Origin: Pseudomonadota bacterium
GTDB lineage: Bacteria; Pseudomonadota; Alphaproteobacteria; Acetobacterales; Acetobacteraceae
Direction: 5' to 3'
Assembly (NCBI GenBank): GCA_018240635.1
Contig: JAFEFJ010000009.1
Coordinates: 1 to 33,963 of the forward strand
DNA: 33,963 bases
The notes under the pieces are model-generated. The model was not told the DNA's origin and did not search any database. It saw only the letters and a program-made list of their open reading frames with translations. This document shows, one piece after another, positions 11,405-23,598 of this stretch. The stretch's first letter is position 1; every line of letters begins with the position of its first letter. Made by a program: the position numbers and the translations under genes.

Positions 11405-12799
11405 ATGGGCTGGAGCACCCGCTACGCGGCGATCAGCTACCTGCGGTCCTCGTTGTGGATCGTTCCGCTGGTCGCGCTCGTGGCGGAGCAGGCGTTCATC
11501 CGCCTGGTCTTCGGGCTCGACGCCTATCTGCGCTGGGTGCCCGATACCGGCCTCACGGCGGGCGGCACGACGAGCGCGATCGACGTGATCGTGAATCTGT
11601 CGATGTCGTTCATCGTGTTCACCTTCGGCTCCATGCTCGTCGCGATCCAGGTGGCGAGCGGGCAGCTCACGCCGCGGATCATCGCAACCACGCTGCTGCG
11701 CGACAACCGCATCCGTTTCACCGTCGGGCTGTTCGTCTTCACGATGCTGTTCGCGCAGGGCACCAAGACGCGCTTCGTGAACGAGGTGCCGCCGTTCGCG
11801 GGCACGATGGTGGCGCTGCTCGGCATCGCCATCGTGGCGGCTTTCCTGTACCTGATCGACTACACCGCGCGGCTGCTGCGGCCGATCTCCATCGTGCGTC
11901 GGCTTGCCGATGGCGGCATCGGGGTGATCGAGAGCGTCTATCCGGAACCCGCCGCGATGCCGCCGCGCCCCGCGCCCGCGCGTCCGCTGCCCGAGGGCGC
12001 GGGGCGGGAGGTGGCGTATGCCGGCCATTCCGCGGTGGTGCTGGCCGTGAACCTGCCGGCGCTGGTCGCGATGGCGCGCGCCGCGGGCGGCGTGATCGAG
12101 TTCCTGCCCCGCGTGGGCGACTTCGTGGCCACCGGAACGCCGCTGTTCCGGCTCTACGAAGGCGCGGCTTCCATCGACGACCGCCGATTGCGCGCGCAGG
12201 TCGCCTTCGGGCCGGAGCGCACGATCGAGCAGGATTCCACCTTCGCATTCCGCGTCATCGTCGATGTCGCGATCAAGGCGCTGTCCAAGGCGATCAACGA
12301 TCCGACCACGGCGGTGGTGGCGATCGACCAGCTCCAGCGCCTGCTGCGCACGACCGGCCTGCGCCACCTGCACGACGACACGCTGGTGGACGCCGAGGGC
12401 CGGCTGCGGCTGATTTTTCCGACGCCGGACTGGACCGACTTCGTGCAGCTCAGCTTCAGCGAGATCCGGCTGTACGGCGCGGAGAACTTCCAGGTGGCGC
12501 GGCGCCTGCGCGCAATGATCGGCGACCTTGCGGCCACGCTCCCGGACTCCCGGCGCCCGGCGCTGGACCGCGAGCTGGCGCTGCTGGATGCGACGCTCGT
12601 CGGGCGCTATGCGCTGCCCGAGGATCTCGCGCTGGCGCGCGAGCCGGACACGCAGGGCCTGGGCGGCGCGGTGCCGCGCGCGCCGGGGGCGCCGGCGCAG
12701 CCTCGCGGAAATGACACAGGTCAATCGGATGCGGCCGCCGGGCGGATAGGCTACGGTCACCGAAGGCCGGTGGACGACGCCGCAGGGGGACGACGATGA
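11405..12799 (+). CDS. DUF2254 integral membrane protein
   Basis: The 464-residue product fits DUF2254 predicted membrane proteins. Four hydrophobic segments lie in the N-terminal 160 residues (about 15-35, 58-85, 103-125, 133-156), with the characteristic [20 protein letters not shown] between the second and third. A large soluble C-terminal part follows, with [20 protein letters not shown] and [14 protein letters not shown]. The function is not established; the shape suggests a channel or transporter-like protein with a cytoplasmic domain. GGGAGG precedes the ATG at 11405. Its stop overlaps the phosphoketolase ATG (ATGA), which implies coupled translation and a shared role or shared control. 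Confidence 0.85.
12711..12752 (+). promoter_or_regulatory. FNR-like box and -10 element upstream of phosphoketolase
   Basis: ATGACACAGGTCAA (12711-12724) differs at one base from TTGA-N6-TCAA and contains the palindrome TGAC-N4-GTCA. A TAGGCT hexamer at 12747-12752 keeps the key T, A and T of a -10 element. The box centre lies 41.5 bases from the start site this predicts (about 12759), which is the classic class II FNR/CRP arrangement. It lies inside the end of the DUF2254 gene and would give xfp its own promoter with a 37-base leader. Confidence 0.55.
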
Positions 12800-15198
12800 G
12801 CCAGGTCTTGTCGGATGCCGAACGCGCGTTGATCGATGCCTGGTGGCGCGCCGCGAACTACGTTTCGATCGGGCAGATCTACCTCTACGACAATCCGCTG
12901 CTGCGCGAGCCGCTTTCCGCCGCGCACATCAAGCCGCGCCTGCTCGGCCACTGGGGCACCACGCCGGGGCTGAACTTCCTGTACGTCCATCTCGGCCGGC
13001 TGATCCGCAAGCACGACCTGAACATGATCTACGTCACCGGCCCCGGGCATGGCGGGCCCGCGCTGGTGGCGAACGCCTATCTGGAAGGCACCTACAGCGA
13101 GGTCTACCCGAACATCTCCCAGGATGCCGACGGGATGAAGCGGCTGTTCACGCAGTTCTCCTTCCCCGGCGGGATTCCGAGCCATGTCGCGCCCGAAACG
13201 CCGGGCTCGATCCACGAGGGCGGCGAGCTCGGCTATGCGCTGTCGCACGCCTACGGCGCGGCGTTCGACAATCCGGACCTGATCGTGGCCTGCGTGGTGG
13301 GCGACGGCGAGGCCGAAACCGGCCCGATGGCGACGAGCTGGCATTCCAACAAGTTCCTCAATCCCGCGCGCGACGGCACGGTGCTGCCGATCCTGCATCT
13401 GAACGGCTACAAGATCGCCAATCCCACGGTGCTGGCGCGGATCAGCCACGAGGAGCTGGAGCAGCTTTTCCGGGGCTACGGCTACACGCCCTATTTTGTC
13501 GAGGGCGACGATCCCGCCACGATGCACGAGACGATGGCCGGGACGCTCGATGCCGTCATCGCCGACATCCACCGCATCAAGGCCAATGCGCGGCGCGAGG
13601 GTTTCACGCATCGCCCGCGCTGGCCGATGATCGTGCTGCGCACGCCGAAGGGCTGGACCTGCCCCAAGGAGATCGACGGCAAGCGCACCGAGGGCTACTG
13701 GCGCGCGCATCAGGTGCCGATGGGCGAGATGCACGAGAAGCCGGACCATGTGCGCATCCTGGAAGAATGGATGAAGAGCTACCGGCCCGGGGAGCTGTTC
13801 GACGAACAGGGGCGGCTGCGTACGGAGATCGCGGCGATGGCGCCGCGCGGCGAGCGCCGCATGAGCGCCAATCCCCATGCCAACGGCGGCCTGCTGCTGC
13901 GCGACCTGCGGCTGCCCGATTTCCGCGACTACGCCGTGGCCGTGCCGTCGCCCGGCGCCGCCTCGGCGGAGTCGACGCGCGTGATGGGCGGTTTCCTGCG
14001 CGACGTGATGACGCTGAACATGGAGGCGCGGAATTTCCGGCTGTTCAGCCCGGACGAGAACAACTCCAACCGCTGGCAGGACGTGCTGGACGTGACGAAC
14101 CGCGCCTGGGCCGCGGAGACGCTGCCGTGGGACGACCACCTCGCGCCCGATGGGCGCGTGATGGAGATGCTGAGCGAGCATCAGTGCCAGGGCTGGCTGG
14201 AAGGCTATCTGCTGACCGGGCGGCACGGCTTCTTCTCGTGCTACGAGGCCTTCATCCACATCATCGATTCGATGTTCAACCAGCACGCCAAGTGGCTGAA
14301 GGTGTGCAACGGCATCGGCTGGCGCCGGCCCATCGCGTCGCTCAACTATCTGCTGTCGAGCCATGTCTGGCGGCAGGACCACAACGGCTTCAGCCACCAG
14401 GACCCTGGCTTCATCGACCATGTCGTGAACAAGAAGGCCGAGGTGGTGCGCGTCTATCTGCCGCCCGACGCCAACTGCCTGCTGTCGGTCACCGATCACT
14501 GCCTGCGCAGCCGCAACTACGTCAACGTGATCGTCGCGGGCAAGCAGGTCGCGCCGCAATGGCTGACGATGGACGAGGCGGTGAAGCACTGCACGGCGGG
14601 CCTGGGCATCTGGGAATGGGCGAGCAGCGACCGCGGCGGCGAGCCCGACGTGGTGATGGCCTGCTGCGGCGACGTGCCGACGCTGGAGACGCTGGCCGCC
14701 GTGTCATTGCTGCGCGAGCACGCGCCCGACGTGAAGGTGCGCGTCGTCAACGTGGTCGATCTGATGAAGCTGCAACCGGCGAGCGAGCATCCGCACGGTT
14801 TGTCCGAGTACGACTTCGACACGCTGTTCACCGTGGACAAGCCGATCATCTTCGCCTTCCACGGCTATCCGTGGCTGATCCACCGCCTGACCTACCGCCG
14901 CCGCGGCCACGCCAACCTGCATGTGCGCGGCTACAAGGAGGAAGGCACCACCACCACGCCCTTCGACATGTGCGTGCTGAACGACCTGGACCGCTTCCAT
15001 CTTGTCTCGGACGTGATCGACCGCGTGCCTGGACTGGCGTCGCGCGCCGCCTACGCCAAGCAGGCGATCCGCGACAAGCTGATCGAGCACCGCGAGTATA
15101 TCTGCCGCCACGGCGACGACATGCCGGACGTGGCGAACTGGCGCTGGTCCGGCGCGGCCAAGCCCGGCGCGCGCTCGACCGAGAACGACAACGCCTGA
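12796..15198 (+). CDS. xfp: Phosphoketolase (xylulose-5-P/fructose-6-P)
   Basis: This 800-residue TPP enzyme is the usual family length. It cleaves xylulose-5-phosphate (and usually fructose-6-phosphate) with phosphate, giving acetyl phosphate plus glyceraldehyde-3-phosphate or erythrose-4-phosphate. Signatures are [11 protein letters not shown] (H85), [16 protein letters not shown], the TPP/Mg motif [18 protein letters not shown] from residue 169, and LDVTNRAW with the later [12 protein letters not shown]. Start and frame are fixed by homology and by the GGGGGA upstream. It overlaps the DUF2254 stop and lies ten bases before the HAD gene. No acetate kinase or phosphotransacetylase is in the window, so the acetyl phosphate must be used by enzymes encoded elsewhere. 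Confidence 0.97.
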
Positions 15199-15208
15199 CG
15201 GAAGTGCG

Positions 15209-15934
15209 ATGGGCGCCGGATTCCTCGGCGTTGTCTTCGATGTCGACGGCGTGCTGGTCGACAGCCCGCACGAGCGCGCATGGCGCGAGGCGCTGCCGCC
15301 CTTCGCCGATCCCGGGGGCTTCACCACCGCGTTCTATCAGGCGCATGTCGCGGGCAAGCCCCGCCTAGCTGGGGCGCGGGCGGCGCTGGAGCGGCTCGGC
15401 CCGCCCGGCGCGGTTGCGCGCGCGCAGGACTATGCCGATGCGAAGCAGCGCCTGATCGAACGCCTGATCGCGGAAGGCGCGTTCCATGCCTTCCCCGATG
15501 CGCTGCGCCTGGTCGCGGCGCTGCGCGCGATGGGGATGAAGCTCGCGCTGGCTTCGTCCTCGCGCAACGCGGCGGCGATGCTGCGGCAGGTCGCGATGCC
15601 GGACGGGCGCACGCTGCTTGCGATGTTCGACGCCGATCTCAGCGGCCGCCCCGTGCCGCGCGGCAAGCCCGATCCGGCGCTGTTCCTGCTGTCCGCGGAG
15701 GCGCTCGCGCTGCCGCCCGCGCGCTGCGTGGTGGTGGAGGACGCGCCGGCCGGCATCCGCGCCGCGCGCGCGGGCGGCATGGCGGCACTCGGCATCGCGC
15801 GCCTGCACGATGCCGCGCTGCTGCGCGAAGCGGGCGCGGACCTGGTGCTGACGCGCCTCGACGGCCTGGACACGTCCGCGCTTGCCGAGGGCGTGCTGCG
15901 CGCGCGCCCCGATCAGGAGAACGCCGATGCTTAA
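15209..15934 (+). CDS. HAD hydrolase, beta-phosphoglucomutase-like
   Basis: This 241-residue HAD subfamily I enzyme has the nucleophile motif FDVDGV (D11, D13), the motif II serine in LASSS, lysine in RGKPDP and the acidic pair in VVEDAPAGI. The cap start HERAW matches the HFRAW of Lactococcus beta-phosphoglucomutase, where the histidine relays protons; two residues fewer separate it from the nucleophile here. Its place between phosphoketolase and a GH65 phosphorylase fits conversion of beta-glucose-1-phosphate to glucose-6-phosphate. A simple sugar-phosphate phosphatase is the alternative. The next gene begins inside its last codons (8-nt overlap), indicating tight coupling. Confidence 0.85.
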   Translation: MGAGFLGVVFDVDGVLVDSPHERAWREALPPFADPGGFTTAFYQAHVAGKPRLAGARAALERLGPPGAVARAQDYADAKQRLIERLIAEGAFHAFPDALRLVAALRAMGMKLALASSSRNAAAMLRQVAMPDGRTLLAMFDADLSGRPVPRGKPDPALFLLSAEALALPPARCVVVEDAPAGIRAARAGGMAALGIARLHDAALLREAGADLVLTRLDGLDTSALAEGVLRARPDQENADA

Positions 15935-18212
15935 GGCAATGATGCCGACGCAGGAGCCGGGTTGGACGCTGGTCCACGAAGGCTACAACGTGCTGACCGA
16001 GAACGCGGTGGAGTCCCGCTTCGCCCTCGGCAACGGGTTCATCGGAATGCGTGCCGCGCGATCCGTCAGCCGCGGTCCGACCTGGACGAGCTGGCTTGGC
16101 TATATCCGCTGGGCGTCCTGGCCGCGCTGCTACCTGGCGGGATTGTTCGACGTGCCCAACACGGTGCCGCCGGTGCCCGCGCTGGTGCCGATCGCGGACT
16201 GGTCGCGCGTGCGCGTCCTGGTGGACGGCGAGTCGCTGCTGGCGCGCGACAGCGACGCGATCGTCGCTTCTCGCACGCTGGACATGCGCCGCGGCGTGCT
16301 GCTGGGCGCCTGGACCGACCGCACGCCCGCAGGCGTCGCCGCCACCGGGCAGGAACTGCGGCTGCTGTCGCTCGCCGACCGCTCGGTGGGCATGCAGGTG
16401 CAGCGCGCGGTTCTCGGCTTCGATGGCGCGGAGGTGCAGGTGGAGGCGAGCTTCGGCCTCGCCGGCCTCGGGATGGACCCGGTGACGCTGCACGACGATC
16501 TGGGCGTGTGGCGCACCGAGGGAACCAGGAAAGCCGTCGCGATGGCCGGTGCCGCGACGCTGCACGTGGATGGCAAGGTGGTGCCGCCCGAACGGCCGTT
16601 CCCATTGCGTTGGGTGTGGCGCTTCCGCTCGCGCGCCGGGCAGGTGGCGGAACTCGACCGTTTCGTCGCCGTCACGCGCGCCGACGCGGCGAACGAAGAC
16701 CCCGCGCCCGCCGCGCGGGCGGCGATGGCGCGCACCCGCGCGCTGGGCTGGCGCGCGGTGCTGGCCCAGCACGAGGCGGCGTGGCAGGCGCGCTGGGACG
16801 AAGGCGGCGTGACCATCGCGGGCGACGACGAGGCGCAGCGCGCCTTGCGCTTCGCGATCTATCATCTCACGAGCGCGGTCAACCCGAACGACGAGCGGGT
16901 TTCGATCGGCGCGCGCGGCCTGACGGGCGACGCCTATTTCGGCCATGTCTTCTGGGACACCGAGATCTATCTGCTGCCCTTCTACGTCGCGACCTGGCCC
17001 GAGGCGGCGCGCGCCCTGCTGATGTACCGCTTCCACACGCTGAACGGCGCGCGCGCCAAGGCGGCGAAGGGCGGCTGGAAGGGCGCGCTCTATCCTTGGG
17101 AGTCCGCCGACACCGGGGAGGAAACCACGCCCGACAGCGTGCTCGGGCCAAATGGTCAGCCGGTGGAGATACTGACCGGAAAGATGGAGCATCACATCAG
17201 CGCCGATGTCTCCTATGCGGTCTGGCAGTACTGGCTCGCCACGGGCGATGACGATTTCTTCCTGCGCGCGGGCGCGGAGATCGTGCTGGAGACCGCTCGG
17301 TTCTGGGCCTCGCGCGCGGTGGCCGAGGCGGACGGGCAGCGGCATATCCGCCACGTGATCGGCCCCGACGAGTACCACGAGGACGTGGACGACAATGCCT
17401 TCACCAACATGATGGCGCGCTGGAACATCGCGCGCGGGCTGGAGACGGCGGCGCTGCTCGACGCGCGCTGGCCGGACCGGGCGGCGGCGCTGCGCGAAAG
17501 CCTGGCGCTGCACGATGCCGAACTGAGCGACTGGCACGACGCGACCGTGCGGATCGCCACCGGCTTCGATCCGGCGAGCGGGCTGTTCGAGGAGTTCGCG
17601 GGCTTTCATGCGCTGGAGCCGGTCGATCTTGCGGCGTTCGCCGGCCAGCCCGGGCCGATCGACATGCTGATCGGCCGCGAGCGGACGCAGCGTTCGCAGG
17701 TGGTGAAGCAGGCTGACGTGGTGGCGCTGATCGGGCTGCTGCCGGAAGTGTTCCCGGGCGATACGGCCGAACGAAACTTCCGCCACTATGCGCCGCGCTG
17801 CGCGGACGGCAGTTCGCTCAGCGCGTCGATGCATGCGTTGGCCGCCGCGCGGCTGGGCGATACCGCGATGGCGCTGCACTATCTGCGCCGGGGAGCGGCG
17901 CTCGATCTCGATCCCGATCCGCAGAGCGCGGGCGGCGTGCGCATCGCTGGCCTGGGCGGGCTGTGGCAGGCCGCGGTGATGGGCTTCGGCGGCCTGCACC
18001 TGGCTGCGGAACGGCCGCGCCTTGCGCCCAGGCTGCCGGCGGAATGGCGGGAACTGTCCTTCCGCGCCTGCTGGCGGGGGCGGCGCTTCGCGGTGCGCGC
18101 AACGCCGGCCGACCTGTCCGTGACGCTGATTGCGGGTGCTGCGATGGAAATCGAGATGGCGGGCGCGGTGCGCCGGCTCGATCCCGGCGCGACCGTCACG
18201 GTGAAGCTGTAG
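15927..18212 (+). CDS. GH65 family disaccharide phosphorylase
   Basis: The 761-residue product has the GH65 layout: an N-terminal beta-sandwich (to about residue 270), a linker, an (alpha/alpha)6 barrel and a short C-terminal beta domain. In the barrel, GPDEYHEDVDDNAFTN supplies the general acid E482, and VVKQADV (residues 592-598) is the phosphate-site signature; GHVFWDTEIYLLPF is also typical. GH65 phosphorylases invert alpha-glucosides (trehalose, maltose, kojibiose, nigerose) with phosphate to beta-glucose-1-phosphate plus glucose; which sugar is used cannot be read here. There is no signal peptide, so it acts in the cytosol. AGGAG sits seven bases before the ATG at 15927, inside the HAD gene. 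The adjacent mutase-like gene supports phosphorylase over hydrolase activity. Confidence 0.92.
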   Translation: MLKAMMPTQEPGWTLVHEGYNVLTENAVESRFALGNGFIGMRAARSVSRGPTWTSWLGYIRWASWPRCYLAGLFDVPNTVPPVPALVPIADWSRVRVLVDGESLLARDSDAIVASRTLDMRRGVLLGAWTDRTPAGVAATGQELRLLSLADRSVGMQVQRAVLGFDGAEVQVEASFGLAGLGMDPVTLHDDLGVWRTEGTRKAVAMAGAATLHVDGKVVPPERPFPLRWVWRFRSRAGQVAELDRFVAVTRADAANEDPAPAARAAMARTRALGWRAVLAQHEAAWQARWDEGGVTIAGDDEAQRALRFAIYHLTSAVNPNDERVSIGARGLTGDAYFGHVFWDTEIYLLPFYVATWPEAARALLMYRFHTLNGARAKAAKGGWKGALYPWESADTGEETTPDSVLGPNGQPVEILTGKMEHHISADVSYAVWQYWLATGDDDFFLRAGAEIVLETARFWASRAVAEADGQRHIRHVIGPDEYHEDVDDNAFTNMMARWNIARGLETAALLDARWPDRAAALRESLALHDAELSDWHDATVRIATGFDPASGLFEEFAGFHALEPVDLAAFAGQPGPIDMLIGRERTQRSQVVKQADVVALIGLLPEVFPGDTAERNFRHYAPRCADGSSLSASMHALAAARLGDTAMALHYLRRGAALDLDPDPQSAGGVRIAGLGGLWQAAVMGFGGLHLAAERPRLAPRLPAEWRELSFRACWRGRRFAVRATPADLSVTLIAGAAMEIEMAGAVRRLDPGATVTVKL

Positions 18213-18236: not shown

Positions 18237-18305
18237 CTACCCGAAGCGCGCCGCGCGCCGTATGGGACAGTGATCGTTCTGCGGGGCGGAACAGCGGGGG
18301 CGGCG

Positions 18306-19331
18306 ATGAAGGCGGTCTATTCCGATCAGGCGGGCGGCCACGACCCGAAGCGGTTCGTGCTGCGCGGCAAGTTCGCGCCGGGCGAGGAACGGCCCGAACG
18401 CGCCGAGCGGCTGATCGCCGGGCTGCGCGCCGGCGGGCACGAATTGCGGCAGGCCGAAGCCTTCGGCCAGGGCCCGCGCCTCGCGGTCCACACGCCGGAC
18501 TACCTGCGCTTCCTGGAGGAATCCGCCGCCGAATGGCGCGCGCTGGCCGACGCCTCGGACGAGGTGCTGGGCAACGCCCATCCGGTCCGCCGCGCCGGCA
18601 CCATGCCGTCCTCGATCGTCGGGCGCGCCGGCTGGTTCATGCAGGACATGGCCTGCGGCATCGGGCCGGGAAGCTGGGCCGCGATCGCGAGCGCGACCGA
18701 CGTGGCGGTGACCGCCGCCGAATTGCTGCTGGGCGGCGAGCGCGCCGCCTACGCGCTGTGCCGCCCGCCCGGGCATCACGCCTATCGCGACATCGCGGGC
18801 GGGCACTGCTTCCTGAACAACACCGCGATCGCCGCGCAGCATCTGCGCGCGGCGCATCCGCGCGTCGCGATCCTGGACATCGACATCCACCACGGCAACG
18901 GCACGCAGGCGATCTTCTACGACCGCGCCGACGTGCTGACCGTGTCCGTCCATGCCGATCCGTCGGTGTTCTACCCGTATTTCTGGGGCTACCCGCACGA
19001 GCGCGGCGAGGGCGCGGGGGAGGGCTGCAACCTCAACCTGCCGATCCCGCGCGGCGCTTCGGACGAGGTGTTCCTCTCGGCCATCGACGCCGCCGCGCCC
19101 ACCATCCGCGCCTTCGTGCCCGGCGTGCTGGTGGTGGCGCTCGGGCTCGACGCCTCGGTGGAGGACCCGTTCGCGGGCGCCGCCGTCACGACCGATGGAT
19201 TCCGGCGCGCGGGGCAGGCGGTGGCGCGGCTCGGCCTGCCGACGCTGTTCGTGCAGGAGGGCGGCTACCTTTCGCCATCCCTGGGGTCCAACCTTCAGGC
19301 CGTGCTCGGGGGGTTTGAAGCGGCGGCCTGA
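18306..19331 (+). CDS. aphA: Acetylpolyamine amidohydrolase / histone-deacetylase family
   Basis: The 341-residue product is the same length as Mycoplana acetylpolyamine amidohydrolase and follows it closely. This zinc enzyme removes acetyl groups from acetylputrescine, acetylspermidine and related amines. The paired histidines are H157-H158 in CRPPGHHAY; the zinc ligands are D193 and H195 in DIDIHHGNGTQ, and D282 in GLDASVEDP; FVQEGGYL closes the site. All active-site residues are intact. HPVRRAGT near residue 97 is typical of the polyamine group rather than AcuC. The ATG at 18306 has a G-rich run just upstream. It is separated by 71 bases and a hairpin from the flavin monooxygenase genes, so joint function is unclear. 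Confidence 0.87.
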   Translation: MKAVYSDQAGGHDPKRFVLRGKFAPGEERPERAERLIAGLRAGGHELRQAEAFGQGPRLAVHTPDYLRFLEESAAEWRALADASDEVLGNAHPVRRAGTMPSSIVGRAGWFMQDMACGIGPGSWAAIASATDVAVTAAELLLGGERAAYALCRPPGHHAYRDIAGGHCFLNNTAIAAQHLRAAHPRVAILDIDIHHGNGTQAIFYDRADVLTVSVHADPSVFYPYFWGYPHERGEGAGEGCNLNLPIPRGASDEVFLSAIDAAAPTIRAFVPGVLVVALGLDASVEDPFAGAAVTTDGFRRAGQAVARLGLPTLFVQEGGYLSPSLGSNLQAVLGGFEAAA

Positions 19332-19332
19332 A

Positions 19333-19353
19333 CGCCGGGCGCTCCGCCCGGTG
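19333..19353 (+). terminator. Hairpin just after amidohydrolase gene
   Basis: CCGGGCG (19335-19341) pairs with CGCCCGG (19345-19351) around CTC. The stem extends by a G-T wobble and a C-G pair to 19333/19353. It begins two bases after the stop codon. There is no T-run, but position and strength suit a terminator or 3' stabiliser. Confidence 0.4.
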
Positions 19354-19402
19354 GCACCGATCTTGCTCCGTCTGCCGACACTTTCGGCCGAAGGAGCGGT
19401 GG

Positions 19403-20749
19403 ATGCCCAGGAAGATGCATCTCGCGTTCGACGTGTCCTACGCGCACATGGACGGGCGCTGGCGCATGCCGGGCTCCGCCTGGAAGGACCGCCGCTATCC
19501 GGACGTGGACACGTTCGAGGAGATCGCGCGCATCTGCGAGCGCGGGCTGCTCGACCTGCTGTTCTCGGGCGACGGCACGGGCGTGCCCTGCACCTGGCAG
19601 GGGAAGCCGGACGACGCGATCCGCTGGGGCATCAGTTGGCCGCGCCAGGACCTGAGCCCGCTGATGGTGGCGATGTCGCGCGTGACGAAGCATCTGGGCT
19701 TCGGCGTGACCTACTCCACCAGCTTCATGCACCCCTACTACCTGGCGCGGCACCTGAATTCGCTCGATCACGTCACCGGCGGGCGCGTCGCGTTCAACGT
19801 GATCACCTCCACCCGCAAATCCGATTTCGAGAACTACGGCTTCACCGAATTGCCCGATCACGGCGAGCGCTACGACCGGATGGAGGAGTTCATCGAGGTC
19901 TGCCGCCAGTTGTGGGACAGCGTGCCGGCGGACGCGATGGTGTGGGACTTCGACAGCGGCGTGGTGGGCGACCCGTCGAAGGTGCGCAACGTCGATCACG
20001 AAGGCCGGTTCTTCAAGGTGCGCGGCCCGCTGAACACGCCGCCCTCGCCGCAGGGCCGGCCGATCCTGGTGCAGGCCGGCGGCTCGCCCCGCGGCATCAA
20101 GGCCGCCGCCGCGATCGTCGATGTGGCATTCGGCGCCGACATGGCGCTGGAGCTTCAGATCCGCCAGCGCGAGACCTTCGACCGCGAGCTGGCGGCGATC
20201 GGCCGCGACCCGCAGAAGGTGGGCATCCTGTGGCAGCAGCCCGTCGTGGTGGCCGAGACCGAGGCCGAGGCGGTGGCGCAGCGCGAGCTTCTGCTGACCG
20301 CGATCCCGCGCGAGGGCGCGGGCGTCTATCTGTCGCACAATTCCGGCTACGACTTCTCGACGCTGCCGCAATGGTTCACGCTGGGCGAGCTGCACGAGCA
20401 GATCGTCGCCACCAACGCCTCGCCCGTGGGCTTCGTGCACGAGATGGCGCTGCGCTTCGGCCGCGACATGCCGATCTCCCGCGACGATTTCTTCGATCAC
20501 GGCCTGCGCGCGGCGACCGGCTACCAGAACACGCTGGCGGGCAATCCCGCGCAGGTGGCGGACCGGCTGGAGGAGGTGTTCGAGGCGACCGGCAGCCGCG
20601 GCGGCTTCATGCTGGGCCACACCGTCTCGATGCCCGACGACCTGACCCGGCTGGTCGATCTGCTTGTTCCGGAACTGCAGCGCCGGGGACGCTTCCGTAC
20701 CGCCTACAAAGGCCGCACACTGCGCGAGAACCTGCTGGACGACGAATGA
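19403..20749 (+). CDS. Flavin-dependent monooxygenase, NtaA/SnaA/DszA family (first)
   Basis: This 448-residue bacterial-luciferase-like TIM barrel belongs to the NtaA/SnaA/DszA group, whose members use reduced FMN and oxygen to oxidise N- or S-containing substrates. Family stretches are FGVTYSTSFMHPYYLARHL, HVTGGRVAFNVITS (about residues 127-140), NYGF...ERYDRMEEFIEV, RGPLNTPPSPQGRPILVQAGGS and, at the end, LLVPELQRRGRFRTAYKG. AAGGAG lies six bases before the ATG. A separate flavin reductase is normally needed; none is in the window. It leads a tight three-gene unit with the PhyH dioxygenase and a second monooxygenase. The substrate is unknown. Confidence 0.88.
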   Translation: MPRKMHLAFDVSYAHMDGRWRMPGSAWKDRRYPDVDTFEEIARICERGLLDLLFSGDGTGVPCTWQGKPDDAIRWGISWPRQDLSPLMVAMSRVTKHLGFGVTYSTSFMHPYYLARHLNSLDHVTGGRVAFNVITSTRKSDFENYGFTELPDHGERYDRMEEFIEVCRQLWDSVPADAMVWDFDSGVVGDPSKVRNVDHEGRFFKVRGPLNTPPSPQGRPILVQAGGSPRGIKAAAAIVDVAFGADMALELQIRQRETFDRELAAIGRDPQKVGILWQQPVVVAETEAEAVAQRELLLTAIPREGAGVYLSHNSGYDFSTLPQWFTLGELHEQIVATNASPVGFVHEMALRFGRDMPISRDDFFDHGLRAATGYQNTLAGNPAQVADRLEEVFEATGSRGGFMLGHTVSMPDDLTRLVDLLVPELQRRGRFRTAYKGRTLRENLLDDE

Positions 20750-20769
20750 ATGCGGCGAGGAGGATGACG

Positions 20770-21597
20770 ATGGCCGGCACCGTTACCGACGAAACCCTGG
20801 CGGACCAGCTCGCGCGGCTGCGCCCCGCCTACGAGCGCGACGGCGCGGTCTGCGTGCGCGGCGCGTTTTCCCCGGAATGGATCGCGGCGCTGGAGCGCGG
20901 GATGGAGGAGAACCTCGCGCATCCCGGCCCCTGGGCGAAGCACTACACGGCGGAAGGCAAGCCCGGCCATTTCTTCGGCGACTACTGCAACTGGCGCCGG
21001 ATCGAGGGCTACCGCGAGTTCCTGCTGCACTCCCCGGCCGCCGAGATCGCCGGGCGGCTGATGGGCAGCCGCAAGGTGAACCTGTTCCACGAGCATGTGC
21101 TGGTGAAGGAGCCGGGCACCGAGGAACCGACGCCCTGGCACCACGACCAGCCGTACTGGACGGTGGACGGGGCGCAGGTGTGCAGCCTGTGGACGCCGCT
21201 CGATCCGGTGGCGCGCGACACCGCGGTGGAGTTCGTCGCGGGCTCGCACCTGTGGGGCAAGCACTTCGCGCCGGCCAGCTTCTCGGACTCCAAGCCGCGC
21301 GAGGGCACGGGGCTTGAGCCGGTTCCCGACATCGCGGGCAACCCGGACAAGTACGAGCTGATCGGCTGGGACCTGGAGCCGGGCGACTGCATCGTCTTCC
21401 ACGGCCTGACGCTGCACGGCGCGCCCGGCAACAGGCGAAAGGGCCGCCGCCGCGCCTTCGCGTCCCGCTGGACGGGCGACGACGTCACCTTCGTCCTGCG
21501 TCCCGGCTACATGTCCCCGCCGCCGCCCGAGGACGCGCCGCCGGTGGGCGCGCCGATGGACAGCGACGTCTATCCGGTGGTGTGGCGGGCCGCCTGA
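20770..21597 (+). CDS. Phytanoyl-CoA dioxygenase (PhyH) family Fe(II)/2OG oxygenase
   Basis: The 275-residue product is a cupin-type non-haem iron, 2-oxoglutarate-dependent oxygenase. The facial triad is visible: H124 and D126 in PWHHDQPYW, and H216 in HGLTLHGAPGN. VNLFHEHVLVKEPG and VEFVAGSHLWGK are family features. I chose the ATG at 20770 because CGAGGAGG (20756-20763) lies six bases upstream; an in-frame ATG at 20746 overlapping the preceding stop and one at 20764 are less well placed. Bacterial PhyH proteins hydroxylate or demethylate varied small molecules, so phytanoyl-CoA need not be the substrate. It sits between two flavin monooxygenases and overlaps or abuts both, suggesting sequential oxidation of one compound. 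Confidence 0.87.
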   Translation: MAGTVTDETLADQLARLRPAYERDGAVCVRGAFSPEWIAALERGMEENLAHPGPWAKHYTAEGKPGHFFGDYCNWRRIEGYREFLLHSPAAEIAGRLMGSRKVNLFHEHVLVKEPGTEEPTPWHHDQPYWTVDGAQVCSLWTPLDPVARDTAVEFVAGSHLWGKHFAPASFSDSKPREGTGLEPVPDIAGNPDKYELIGWDLEPGDCIVFHGLTLHGAPGNRRKGRRRAFASRWTGDDVTFVLRPGYMSPPPPEDAPPVGAPMDSDVYPVVWRAA

Positions 21598-21599
21598 CG

Positions 21600-22913
21600 A
21601 TGGCAGCCAAGCCGTTCCATCTGGGACTGTTCCTGCAAGGCTCCAGCGCGCAGGCCTGGGGCGAGCCGTGGACCGGGCATATCGGCGAAAGCTGGATGCA
21701 GCCGAAACTGTTCCTGGATATCGCGCAGGCGCTGGAACGCGCCTGCTTCGATTACCTGCTGCTGGAGGACAGTTCCTATATCGGCGAGAGCTATAAGGGC
21801 TCGCGCGAGATCTACCTGCACAACGGCATCGCGGTGCCGCGCCAGGACCCTTCGGTGGTGGCGGCGCTGATGACATCCGTCACCACGCGGCTCGGCATCG
21901 TTCCCACCTTCGGCACCTTTGCCTATCCGCCCTATCTGCTGGCGCGGCTGATGGCGACGCTTGATCAGGTCTCGGCCGGGCGGATCGGCTGGAACATGGT
22001 GACCGGCAGCTCCGACTATGCCGCGCGCAATTTCGGGCTGGACGGGATGCCGGAGCACGATCTGCGCTACGACATGGCCGACGAATACATGCAGGTAGTG
22101 AACGGGCTCTGGGATTCCTGGGAGCCGGGCGCGCTGGTCGCCGACGCCGAGGGCGGGATGCTGGTGGACCACACCAAGGTCCGGCAGATCGACTTCGAGG
22201 GAAAGTGGTTCCGCGTGCGCGGGCCGCTGAACTCGGGGCCGTGCCCGCAGGGGCGACCGGTGATCGCGCAGGCGGGAGGATCGCCGCGCGGGCGCGATTT
22301 CGCCGCGGCCAACGCGGACACGATCGTGGCGCATGTGAAGGGTGTGGCGGCGATGCGCGCCTATCGCGACGACGTGCGCCGGCGGATGGTCGCGCAGGGG
22401 CGCGATCCCGACCGCTGCAAGATCCTGTTCCTGGTCGATCCGATCATCGGCGAGACCCGCGCCGACGCCGAGGCGCTGCGCGACCGCCGCCGCGCGCGCG
22501 AGGCCACGCAGGTGGACCGCAAGCTCGCGTTCCTGGGCAAGATCACCAACATCGATTTCGGCCGGTTCGACCTGGATGCACCGGTCGCCGACCTGACGAC
22601 GAACGGGCACCAGCAGACGCTGGACGAATTCAAGCGCCGCGGCGCGGGCAAGACGCTGCGCGAGGCGATGCTGACCTACAACGCCGAGGGCGGGTCGGTG
22701 TCGCTGTGCGGCTCCCCCGACGACCTGGCGGCGCAGATGGCGGAGGCGATGGAGGAAGCGGGCGGCGACGGCTTCCTGTTCTCGATGCCCGACATCAGCC
22801 GCCGCCGCATCGCCGAGATCGAGGACGGGCTCGTGCCCGCGCTGCAACGCCGCGGGCTGACGCGGCGGGCGTACGAGCACGCGATGTTCCGGGACAACCT
22901 GCTGGCGTTCTGA
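21600..22913 (+). CDS. Flavin-dependent monooxygenase, NtaA/SnaA/DszA family (second)
   Basis: The 437-residue product belongs to the same family as the one at 19403 but is clearly diverged. It has FGTFAYPPYLLARLMATLD, VSAGRIGWNMVTGSSDYAARNFG (about residues 125-147), RYDMADEYMQVV, RGPLNSGPCPQGRPVIAQAGGS and a similar end, LVPALQRRGLTRRAYEH. The paralogues are too different to be a recent duplication, so they probably do different steps or different substrates. The ATG begins three bases after the PhyH stop and has only a weak ribosome-binding site, so translation is likely coupled. No flavin reductase or transporter follows; a toxin-antitoxin pair does. Confidence 0.88.
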   Translation: MAAKPFHLGLFLQGSSAQAWGEPWTGHIGESWMQPKLFLDIAQALERACFDYLLLEDSSYIGESYKGSREIYLHNGIAVPRQDPSVVAALMTSVTTRLGIVPTFGTFAYPPYLLARLMATLDQVSAGRIGWNMVTGSSDYAARNFGLDGMPEHDLRYDMADEYMQVVNGLWDSWEPGALVADAEGGMLVDHTKVRQIDFEGKWFRVRGPLNSGPCPQGRPVIAQAGGSPRGRDFAAANADTIVAHVKGVAAMRAYRDDVRRRMVAQGRDPDRCKILFLVDPIIGETRADAEALRDRRRAREATQVDRKLAFLGKITNIDFGRFDLDAPVADLTTNGHQQTLDEFKRRGAGKTLREAMLTYNAEGGSVSLCGSPDDLAAQMAEAMEEAGGDGFLFSMPDISRRRIAEIEDGLVPALQRRGLTRRAYEHAMFRDNLLAF

Positions 22914-22940: not shown

Positions 22941-22965
22941 AATTAGCTAAATAAGTTGGCTAATT
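22941..22965 (+). promoter_or_regulatory. Palindromic operator/promoter of toxin-antitoxin pair
   Basis: AATTAGC (22941-22947) and GCTAATT (22959-22965) are a perfect inverted repeat. Inside it are two tandem near-palindromic octamers, TTAGCTAA (22943-22950) and TTGGCTAA (22956-22963). The patch is strikingly A+T-rich for this DNA and ends just before the antitoxin ribosome-binding site. Phd/YefM antitoxins usually repress their own operon from such sites. Confidence 0.6.
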
Positions 22966-22976
22966 CGGAGGCGGTC

Positions 22977-23207
22977 ATGACGACAGTCACGATCCACACG
23001 GCCAAAACCACGTTGTCGCAGCTGATCGCGCGCGTCGAAGCCGGGGAGGAGATCGTCCTGGCGCGTGGCAAGGTGCCGGTGGCGAAGCTGGTTCCGATAA
23101 ACACGATGCCTGCGCAGCGCCGGTTCGGCGCCCTTCGGGGCGTGGTGAGCGTGGGGCCTGAATTCTTCGAGCCGCTTCCGGAACCGGAACTCGCGCTCTG
23201 GGAGTAG
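22977..23207 (+). CDS. Phd/YefM-family antitoxin
   Basis: This 76-residue protein has the Phd/YefM pattern: an N-terminal DNA-binding fold (VTIHTAKTTLSQLIARVEAGEEIVLARG) with KVPVAKLVP, then a Pro/Glu-rich flexible tail (FFEPLPEPELALWE) expected to wrap the toxin. CGGAGG lies five bases before the ATG; an in-frame TTG at 22956 lies within the operator and is unlikely to be used. The PIN-domain gene begins four bases after its stop, the standard antitoxin-first order. It should neutralise the toxin and repress the operon through the palindromes just upstream. Confidence 0.87.
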   Translation: MTTVTIHTAKTTLSQLIARVEAGEEIVLARGKVPVAKLVPINTMPAQRRFGALRGVVSVGPEFFEPLPEPELALWE

Positions 23208-23211
23208 CGGC

Positions 23212-23598
23212 GTGCGACTGCTGCTCGACACCCACGCGTTTCTCTGGTGGCTTGCAGGTGACGCGGCGCTTTCCGATCCTGCCCGCGCGGCGATCGGGGA
23301 CACGGCGAACGACGTCCTTGTCAGCGCAGCGACCGCCTGGGAAATCACCACGAAGCACCGGATCGGCAAGCTGCCCGGCGTCGCTGCAATCGTCGCGGAT
23401 CTAGGAGCCGCAGTCGCCGCGCAGGGGTTTGCTACCGTGCCGATCAGCTTCCGGCACGGTCAAGCCGCCGGGGCGCTTCCCGGAACCCATCGCGATCCGT
23501 TCGACCGGATGCTGATGGCCCAGGCCATGATGGAAAATCTGGTCCTCGTATCGAACGAACAGGCGTTCGACGCCTACGGCGTGCGCCGCCTGTGGTAG
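23212..23598 (+). CDS. VapC-like PIN-domain toxin
   Basis: The 128-residue PIN domain is a metal-dependent RNase fold. Acidic residues lie at the expected places: D6 in LLLDTHAFLWW, E44 in TAWEITTKHRIGKL, and D95 and D98 in HRDPFDRMLMAQA. The last conserved segment reads VSNEQAFDAYGV, where many relatives have an acidic residue at the Asn. It starts at GTG 23212, with GGAG overlapping the antitoxin's end. VapC toxins usually cut tRNA or rRNA at specific sites; the target here is unknown. The pair interrupts the trend of metabolic genes and may be a small mobile cassette, although no ends are visible. Confidence 0.88.
   Translation: MRLLLDTHAFLWWLAGDAALSDPARAAIGDTANDVLVSAATAWEITTKHRIGKLPGVAAIVADLGAAVAAQGFATVPISFRHGQAAGALPGTHRDPFDRMLMAQAMMENLVLVSNEQAFDAYGVRRLW

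Follow-up and report, generated by a model that had tools for sequence, protein, structure and literature searches.

A three-gene cassette of two flavin monooxygenases and a PhyH-family oxygenase in an Acetobacteraceae genome: a possible lineage-specific catabolic operon

Two flavin monooxygenase genes in an Acetobacteraceae MAG directly enclose a gene for an Fe(II)/2-oxoglutarate oxygenase, and we tentatively favor reading this cassette as a catabolic operon specific to its lineage, in which three oxygenase genes are probably co-transcribed and whose products would carry out stepwise oxidative C-N dealkylation or cleavage of a small, amino-acid-like N-substituted compound, a reading to which we give somewhat less than even weight. 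The order of the three genes is unique within the loci searched, and the cassette looks like a recent, lineage-specific assembly of oxygenases from known families. The window, that is, the whole stretch of DNA analyzed (33,963 nucleotides), is one whole contig of a genome that comprises 551 contigs and is 91% complete.

The three cassette genes lie on the forward strand, as do the deacylase gene and the leader described below. The first gene, LLM1 (19403..20749), encodes an NtaA/DmoA-family FMN-dependent monooxygenase of 448 amino acids, assigned from Pfam, NCBIfam and individual residues; the second (20770..21597) encodes a PhyH-family Fe(II)/2-oxoglutarate oxygenase of 275 amino acids, hereafter PhyH, assigned from Pfam, its match to MysH and an intact HxD...H plus Arg center; and the third, LLM2 (21600..22913), encodes a second NtaA/DmoA-family FMN-dependent monooxygenase of 437 amino acids, assigned from Pfam and NCBIfam and carrying a VTGSSD signature that its orthologues share. 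An earlier, sequence-only reading of this DNA had described two NtaA/DszA-type monooxygenases around a complete PhyH with almost no intergenic space, and both points are borne out: the families are confirmed, the three co-directional genes are intact, and the measured gaps are 20 bp between LLM1 and PhyH and 2 bp between PhyH and LLM2. Codon statistics trained on Pfam-confirmed genes back all three genes. The most likely start of PhyH is the ATG at 20770, behind AGGAGG (alternatives at 20764 and 20746), and that of LLM2 is the ATG at 21600 (alternative GTG at 21582). This spacing and shared direction are more than random proximity, and the three genes are probably co-transcribed. The same reading had noted neither a reductase nor a transporter alongside; we likewise found neither a flavin reductase nor a transporter among the window genes that were scanned with Pfam, and two flavin reductases are encoded elsewhere in the genome, on contigs C504 and C182.

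The upstream flank holds genes for a phosphoketolase, a HAD hydrolase, a family-65 glycoside hydrolase and a deacylase, of which the first three are consecutive (12796-18212) and perhaps form a disaccharide-use cluster. Downstream, a Phd/YefM antitoxin and PIN-domain toxin pair (22956-23598) lies directly 3' of the cassette and is followed by COQ7 and other genes.

Synteny searches found this gene order in no other locus. Slightly more than 100 distinct loci with a PhyH relative were compared, most of them extending as far as 10 kb to either side and some ended by contig ends; they took in 21 further genomes from a same-family sample of 397. In none of these loci did an NtaA-like gene stand next to PhyH; nor did any of 38 loci of LLM1 or LLM2 relatives show an adjoining PhyH gene. 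The closest approaches are locus L207, where a gene with weak resemblance to PhyH lies about 6 kb from LLM2, and genome G013, where a PhyH gene and an LLM2 orthologue share a contig about 26 kb apart. Among 385 genomes of the class, LLM1 orthologues were found in one further genome. The co-occurrence of LLM1 and PhyH orthologues across genomes (2/12 versus 1.1 expected, p 0.31) is no more than chance, and that of PhyH and LLM2 orthologues is higher (7/12 versus 2.9, p 0.009), an excess for which larger genomes may account. Because the order recurs in no other searched locus, a conserved three-gene pathway, as the sequence-only reading had implied, is unsupported and was rejected; that reading had itself named uniqueness of the order to this strain as grounds for refutation, and the search comes close to that outcome. 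Its statement that no described pathway has this gene order holds, in that we found none. Since the order is not conserved, the argument for a shared substrate, which the close spacing makes plausible, depends on the operon structure of a single MAG; an order of steps and successive oxidation of one compound are likewise inferred, the latter from operon structure.

These results bear directly on the main alternative, in which oxygenase genes of expanded families met in this lineage and came to share a promoter while their products act on separate substrates. That account is possible, and the uniqueness of the order, the very varied neighbors of PhyH relatives, the chance-level co-occurrence of PhyH with LLM1 and the 15 or more further NtaA-like genes of this genome, of which some are in tandem, all agree with it. 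However, the near-zero gaps and intact frames suggest selection for joint expression, chance flanking of PhyH by two such genes would be unlikely even if about 20 of some 4,000 genes were of this kind (a rough estimate), and the PhyH/LLM2 co-occurrence, subject to the genome-size effect noted above, also points away from it. We give a joint pathway and opportunistic neighbors nearly equal weight, and consider organosulfur salvage and polyamine catabolism, both taken up below, less likely.

Both monooxygenases match Bac_luciferase in Pfam (4e-40 for LLM1 and 5e-40 for LLM2) and pass the curated cut-off of 279.7 bits for the NtaA/DmoA family TIGR03860 in NCBIfam, with 372.0 and 388.5 bits, respectively. 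Like characterized members of this family (DszA/BdsA, YtnJ, LadA, NtaA, EmoA), they keep the FMN contacts, as His156, Arg159 and Tyr160 (BdsA numbering) are retained in both enzymes and in the orthologues closest to them in an alignment to DszA/BdsA; unlike those members, they have no reductase partner nearby, and no single solved member stands out as their counterpart. Among solved structures DszA scores highest for both, and because YtnJ (the second-best match of LLM2 and the same protein as CmoJ), DmoA and LadA lie close behind, no specific function can be read for either enzyme. A short contig of the same genome (L292, G000:C164) also carries four NtaA-like genes or fragments in tandem.

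Comparison with the dibenzothiophene-type enzymes used the DBT-sulfone contact set of Phe12, His20, Phe56, Phe246, Val248, His316 and Val372 together with the nucleophile Ser139, which BdsA needs (PMC5819316). LLM1 keeps Phe56, Phe246 and Ser139, LLM2 keeps only Phe12, and columns 20 and 372 are gapped in both; position 139 is Gly in LLM2 and its close orthologues, where the alignment of the VTGSSD segment is perhaps one residue off. As most substrate-contact residues are not kept, a DszA/BdsA-type DBT-sulfone monooxygenase was rejected for both proteins. The two monooxygenases are about 33% alike and differ from each other at positions 56, 246, 248 and 316 (BdsA numbering); they belong to separate groups with unlike active-site signatures and are probably not interchangeable. 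In several genomes LLM1 orthologues adjoin NMT1-type or Liv-type ABC transporter genes, and LLM2 orthologues adjoin Pot-type ABC genes, which fits uptake of a small organic nitrogen or sulfur compound.

PhyH matches PF05721 at 5e-31 (109 bits; Pfam cut-off 22), and its H124, D126, H216 and R227 are intact, invariant in a 56-row alignment and common to MysH. The AlphaFold2 model is confident (mean pLDDT 93.5), and its closest solved fold is MysH, followed by SnoN/SnoK and, lower, by the free amino-acid hydroxylases proline hydroxylase H11, GriE and EctD. MysH is also the best solved match by sequence search (E 1.5e-41), with 75 of 237 aligned residues identical (32%). This cyanobacterial, palythine-forming enzyme shares with PhyH the HxD/H/R center and a WTGDDV motif, but has Lys and Asn at the positions where S139 and R233 are invariant in the family of the window PhyH. 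An identity as MysH was rejected at this level of identity and with no mycosporine-type cluster among the Pfam-scanned window genes. Plasmid-borne copies of the window PhyH were likewise rejected, as the relatives in all 23 plasmid records that carry one are less than 60% identical to it.

The proposed action of MysH is hydroxylation of an N-bound glycine, by which that side chain is destabilized (PMC10510106), and nitrilotriacetate monooxygenase, of the same family as LLM1 and LLM2, takes a glyoxylate group off an aminocarboxylic acid (PMC5395668). It is because of these two chemistries that we lean toward oxidative C-N cleavage, a preference that is plausible, although the roughly equal scores of LLM1 and LLM2 with desulfurization enzymes (DszA, DmoA, YtnJ) and other members count against it. 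In the joint pathway that we tentatively favor, the substrate would be imported by a transporter encoded elsewhere; LLM1 and LLM2 would take FMNH2 from a reductase also encoded elsewhere and form flavin hydroperoxides, and PhyH would use Fe(II), O2 and 2-oxoglutarate to hydroxylate a carbon adjacent to a heteroatom. Together they would bring about stepwise oxidative dealkylation or C-N cleavage, with C-S cleavage less likely, and would release an amine, amino acid or keto acid that the cell can use. The sequence-only reading had left the substrate as N- or S-bearing; nitrogen is now favored by MysH and by the PhyH relatives linked to histidine utilization (hut) described below, and sulfur chemistry of the flavoenzymes stays possible.

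Immediately upstream, 71 bp before LLM1, lies a gene (18270..19331) for an acetylpolyamine-amidohydrolase-like zinc deacylase, a candidate fourth member of the cassette. Its best solved matches are acetylpolyamine amidohydrolases (3men, E 8.8e-88), and the HH, DxDxHH and Tyr segments of the zinc site align to 3men by eye, which marks the protein as a putative enzyme of this kind. None of 29 loci of deacylase orthologues, viewed with 1.5 kb flanks, contains an LLM gene or a Pot-type binding protein, and the deacylase was accordingly rejected as an established cassette partner; the deacylase beside an LLM1 orthologue in locus L196 seems to be of a different, common paralogue class. The intergenic leader between deacylase and LLM1 (19332..19402) folds unusually well in one computation (z -3.8) and contains two strong predicted hairpins, the second of which pairs with the ribosome-binding region of LLM1. 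With no match to Rfam, a known riboswitch or other RNA family was rejected, and the predicted structure may separate the cassette from the deacylase gene or have a part in its regulation.

This arrangement invites comparison with organosulfur salvage, including the YxeK pathway (PMC9706529) and an established route in which two flavoenzymes act in sequence on an N-acetyl S-alkylcysteine before deacetylation (PMC10863075). In a CmoO/CmoJ-like version, one flavoenzyme would oxidize a thioether, the other would cleave C-S, and the deacylase would remove the N-acyl group. The cassette resembles that system in its two flavoenzymes and adjacent deacylation function, YtnJ ranks high for LLM2, and NMT1-type transporters adjoin LLM1 orthologues; the CmoO/CmoJ pathway, however, has an acetyltransferase, another kind of deacylase and no PhyH, whereas no acetyltransferase occurs among the Pfam-scanned window genes, and the deacylase here resembles acetylpolyamine amidohydrolases and has orthologues that do not stand beside these monooxygenases. 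Considering in addition that substrate-binding residues of BdsA differ in both LLM1 and LLM2, we regard this explanation as unlikely.

The resemblance to acetylpolyamine amidohydrolases would instead suit catabolism of an acylated polyamine or amine, in which the deacylase frees the amine and LLM1, PhyH and LLM2 oxidize it further, and Pot-type ABC genes do occur near some of the LLM2 orthologues and near a single PhyH relative (L074). Yet the Pot-type binding proteins of PhyH and LLM2 loci are only 27-45% alike, which does not imply a common substrate of these loci, and a shared Pot-type transporter was rejected on this ground. As the deacylase orthologues also lack such neighbors and the structured predicted leader parts the deacylase from LLM1, polyamine catabolism appears improbable.

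The best clue to the substrate of PhyH comes from the context of its relatives, the nearest of which, along with several further lineages, occur within or next to hut operons. In two Stella genomes a PhyH relative lies inside an operon HutI-HutH-PhyH-HutU with HutF adjacent; in Roseomonas PhyH is the last gene of an amino-acid ABC operon, from which a second 2OG oxygenase, HutU and HutH diverge; another alphaproteobacterial group has genes for a Liv-type transporter and for HutC, HutU and HutH in divergent orientation to PhyH; and Comamonadaceae encode HutH, HutU and an amino-acid ABC transporter at a distance of roughly 4-10 kb. The second Roseomonas 2OG-Fe(II) oxygenase (DIOX_N/2OG-FeII_Oxy), beside HutU, spans 5881-6930 in L058 and 13717-14700 in L305. 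Hut genes are within reach of 15/98 PhyH loci versus 0/38 control monooxygenase loci (Fisher p 0.011, a test that ignores relatedness), and because the hut label needs about six or seven changes on the PhyH tree, hut-linked PhyH occurs in several lineages. The linked loci (L066, L082, L058, L305, L040, L044, L057, L059 and L084-L098) represent about five lineages.

The PhyH proteins of the Stella, Roseomonas and Comamonadaceae hut operons are 55-68% identical to the window PhyH, which groups with a hut-linked Acetobacteraceae/Roseomonas clade and one unlinked row (97/72, below the threshold for firm support). In those operons, however, PhyH is partnered by HutH, HutU, HutC, HutI or an amino-acid ABC transporter and not by flavin monooxygenases, and no hut gene was found within 10 kb of the window PhyH among the Pfam-scanned window genes. 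Because HutH has no match in this 91% complete genome, the histidine link of the relatives is not directly transferable to the window PhyH; one HutU (urocanase) is encoded in another context (L303, G000:C444) without HutH nearby. A more speculative proposal, which we consider improbable, is that the window PhyH belongs to an unrecognized subfamily that processes a histidine-derived compound, such as an N-substituted histidine, before or alongside the Hut pathway; this genome, where no HutH was found, would then have swapped the Hut steps for the two flavin monooxygenases, which would open the ring or side chain that is left.

Within a single operon, the cassette joins flavin-hydroperoxide chemistry to that of an Fe(II)/2-oxoglutarate oxygenase; we found no described pathway for it, and, being known from one MAG, it is itself of limited general importance. 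Among the by-products of this analysis, the PhyH subfamily linked to hut genes is the most interesting, and we found no paper in the open-access literature that names a link between PhyH and hut genes. If confirmed, this link would provide a substrate class for many proteins that are at present annotated only as "phytanoyl-CoA dioxygenase family".
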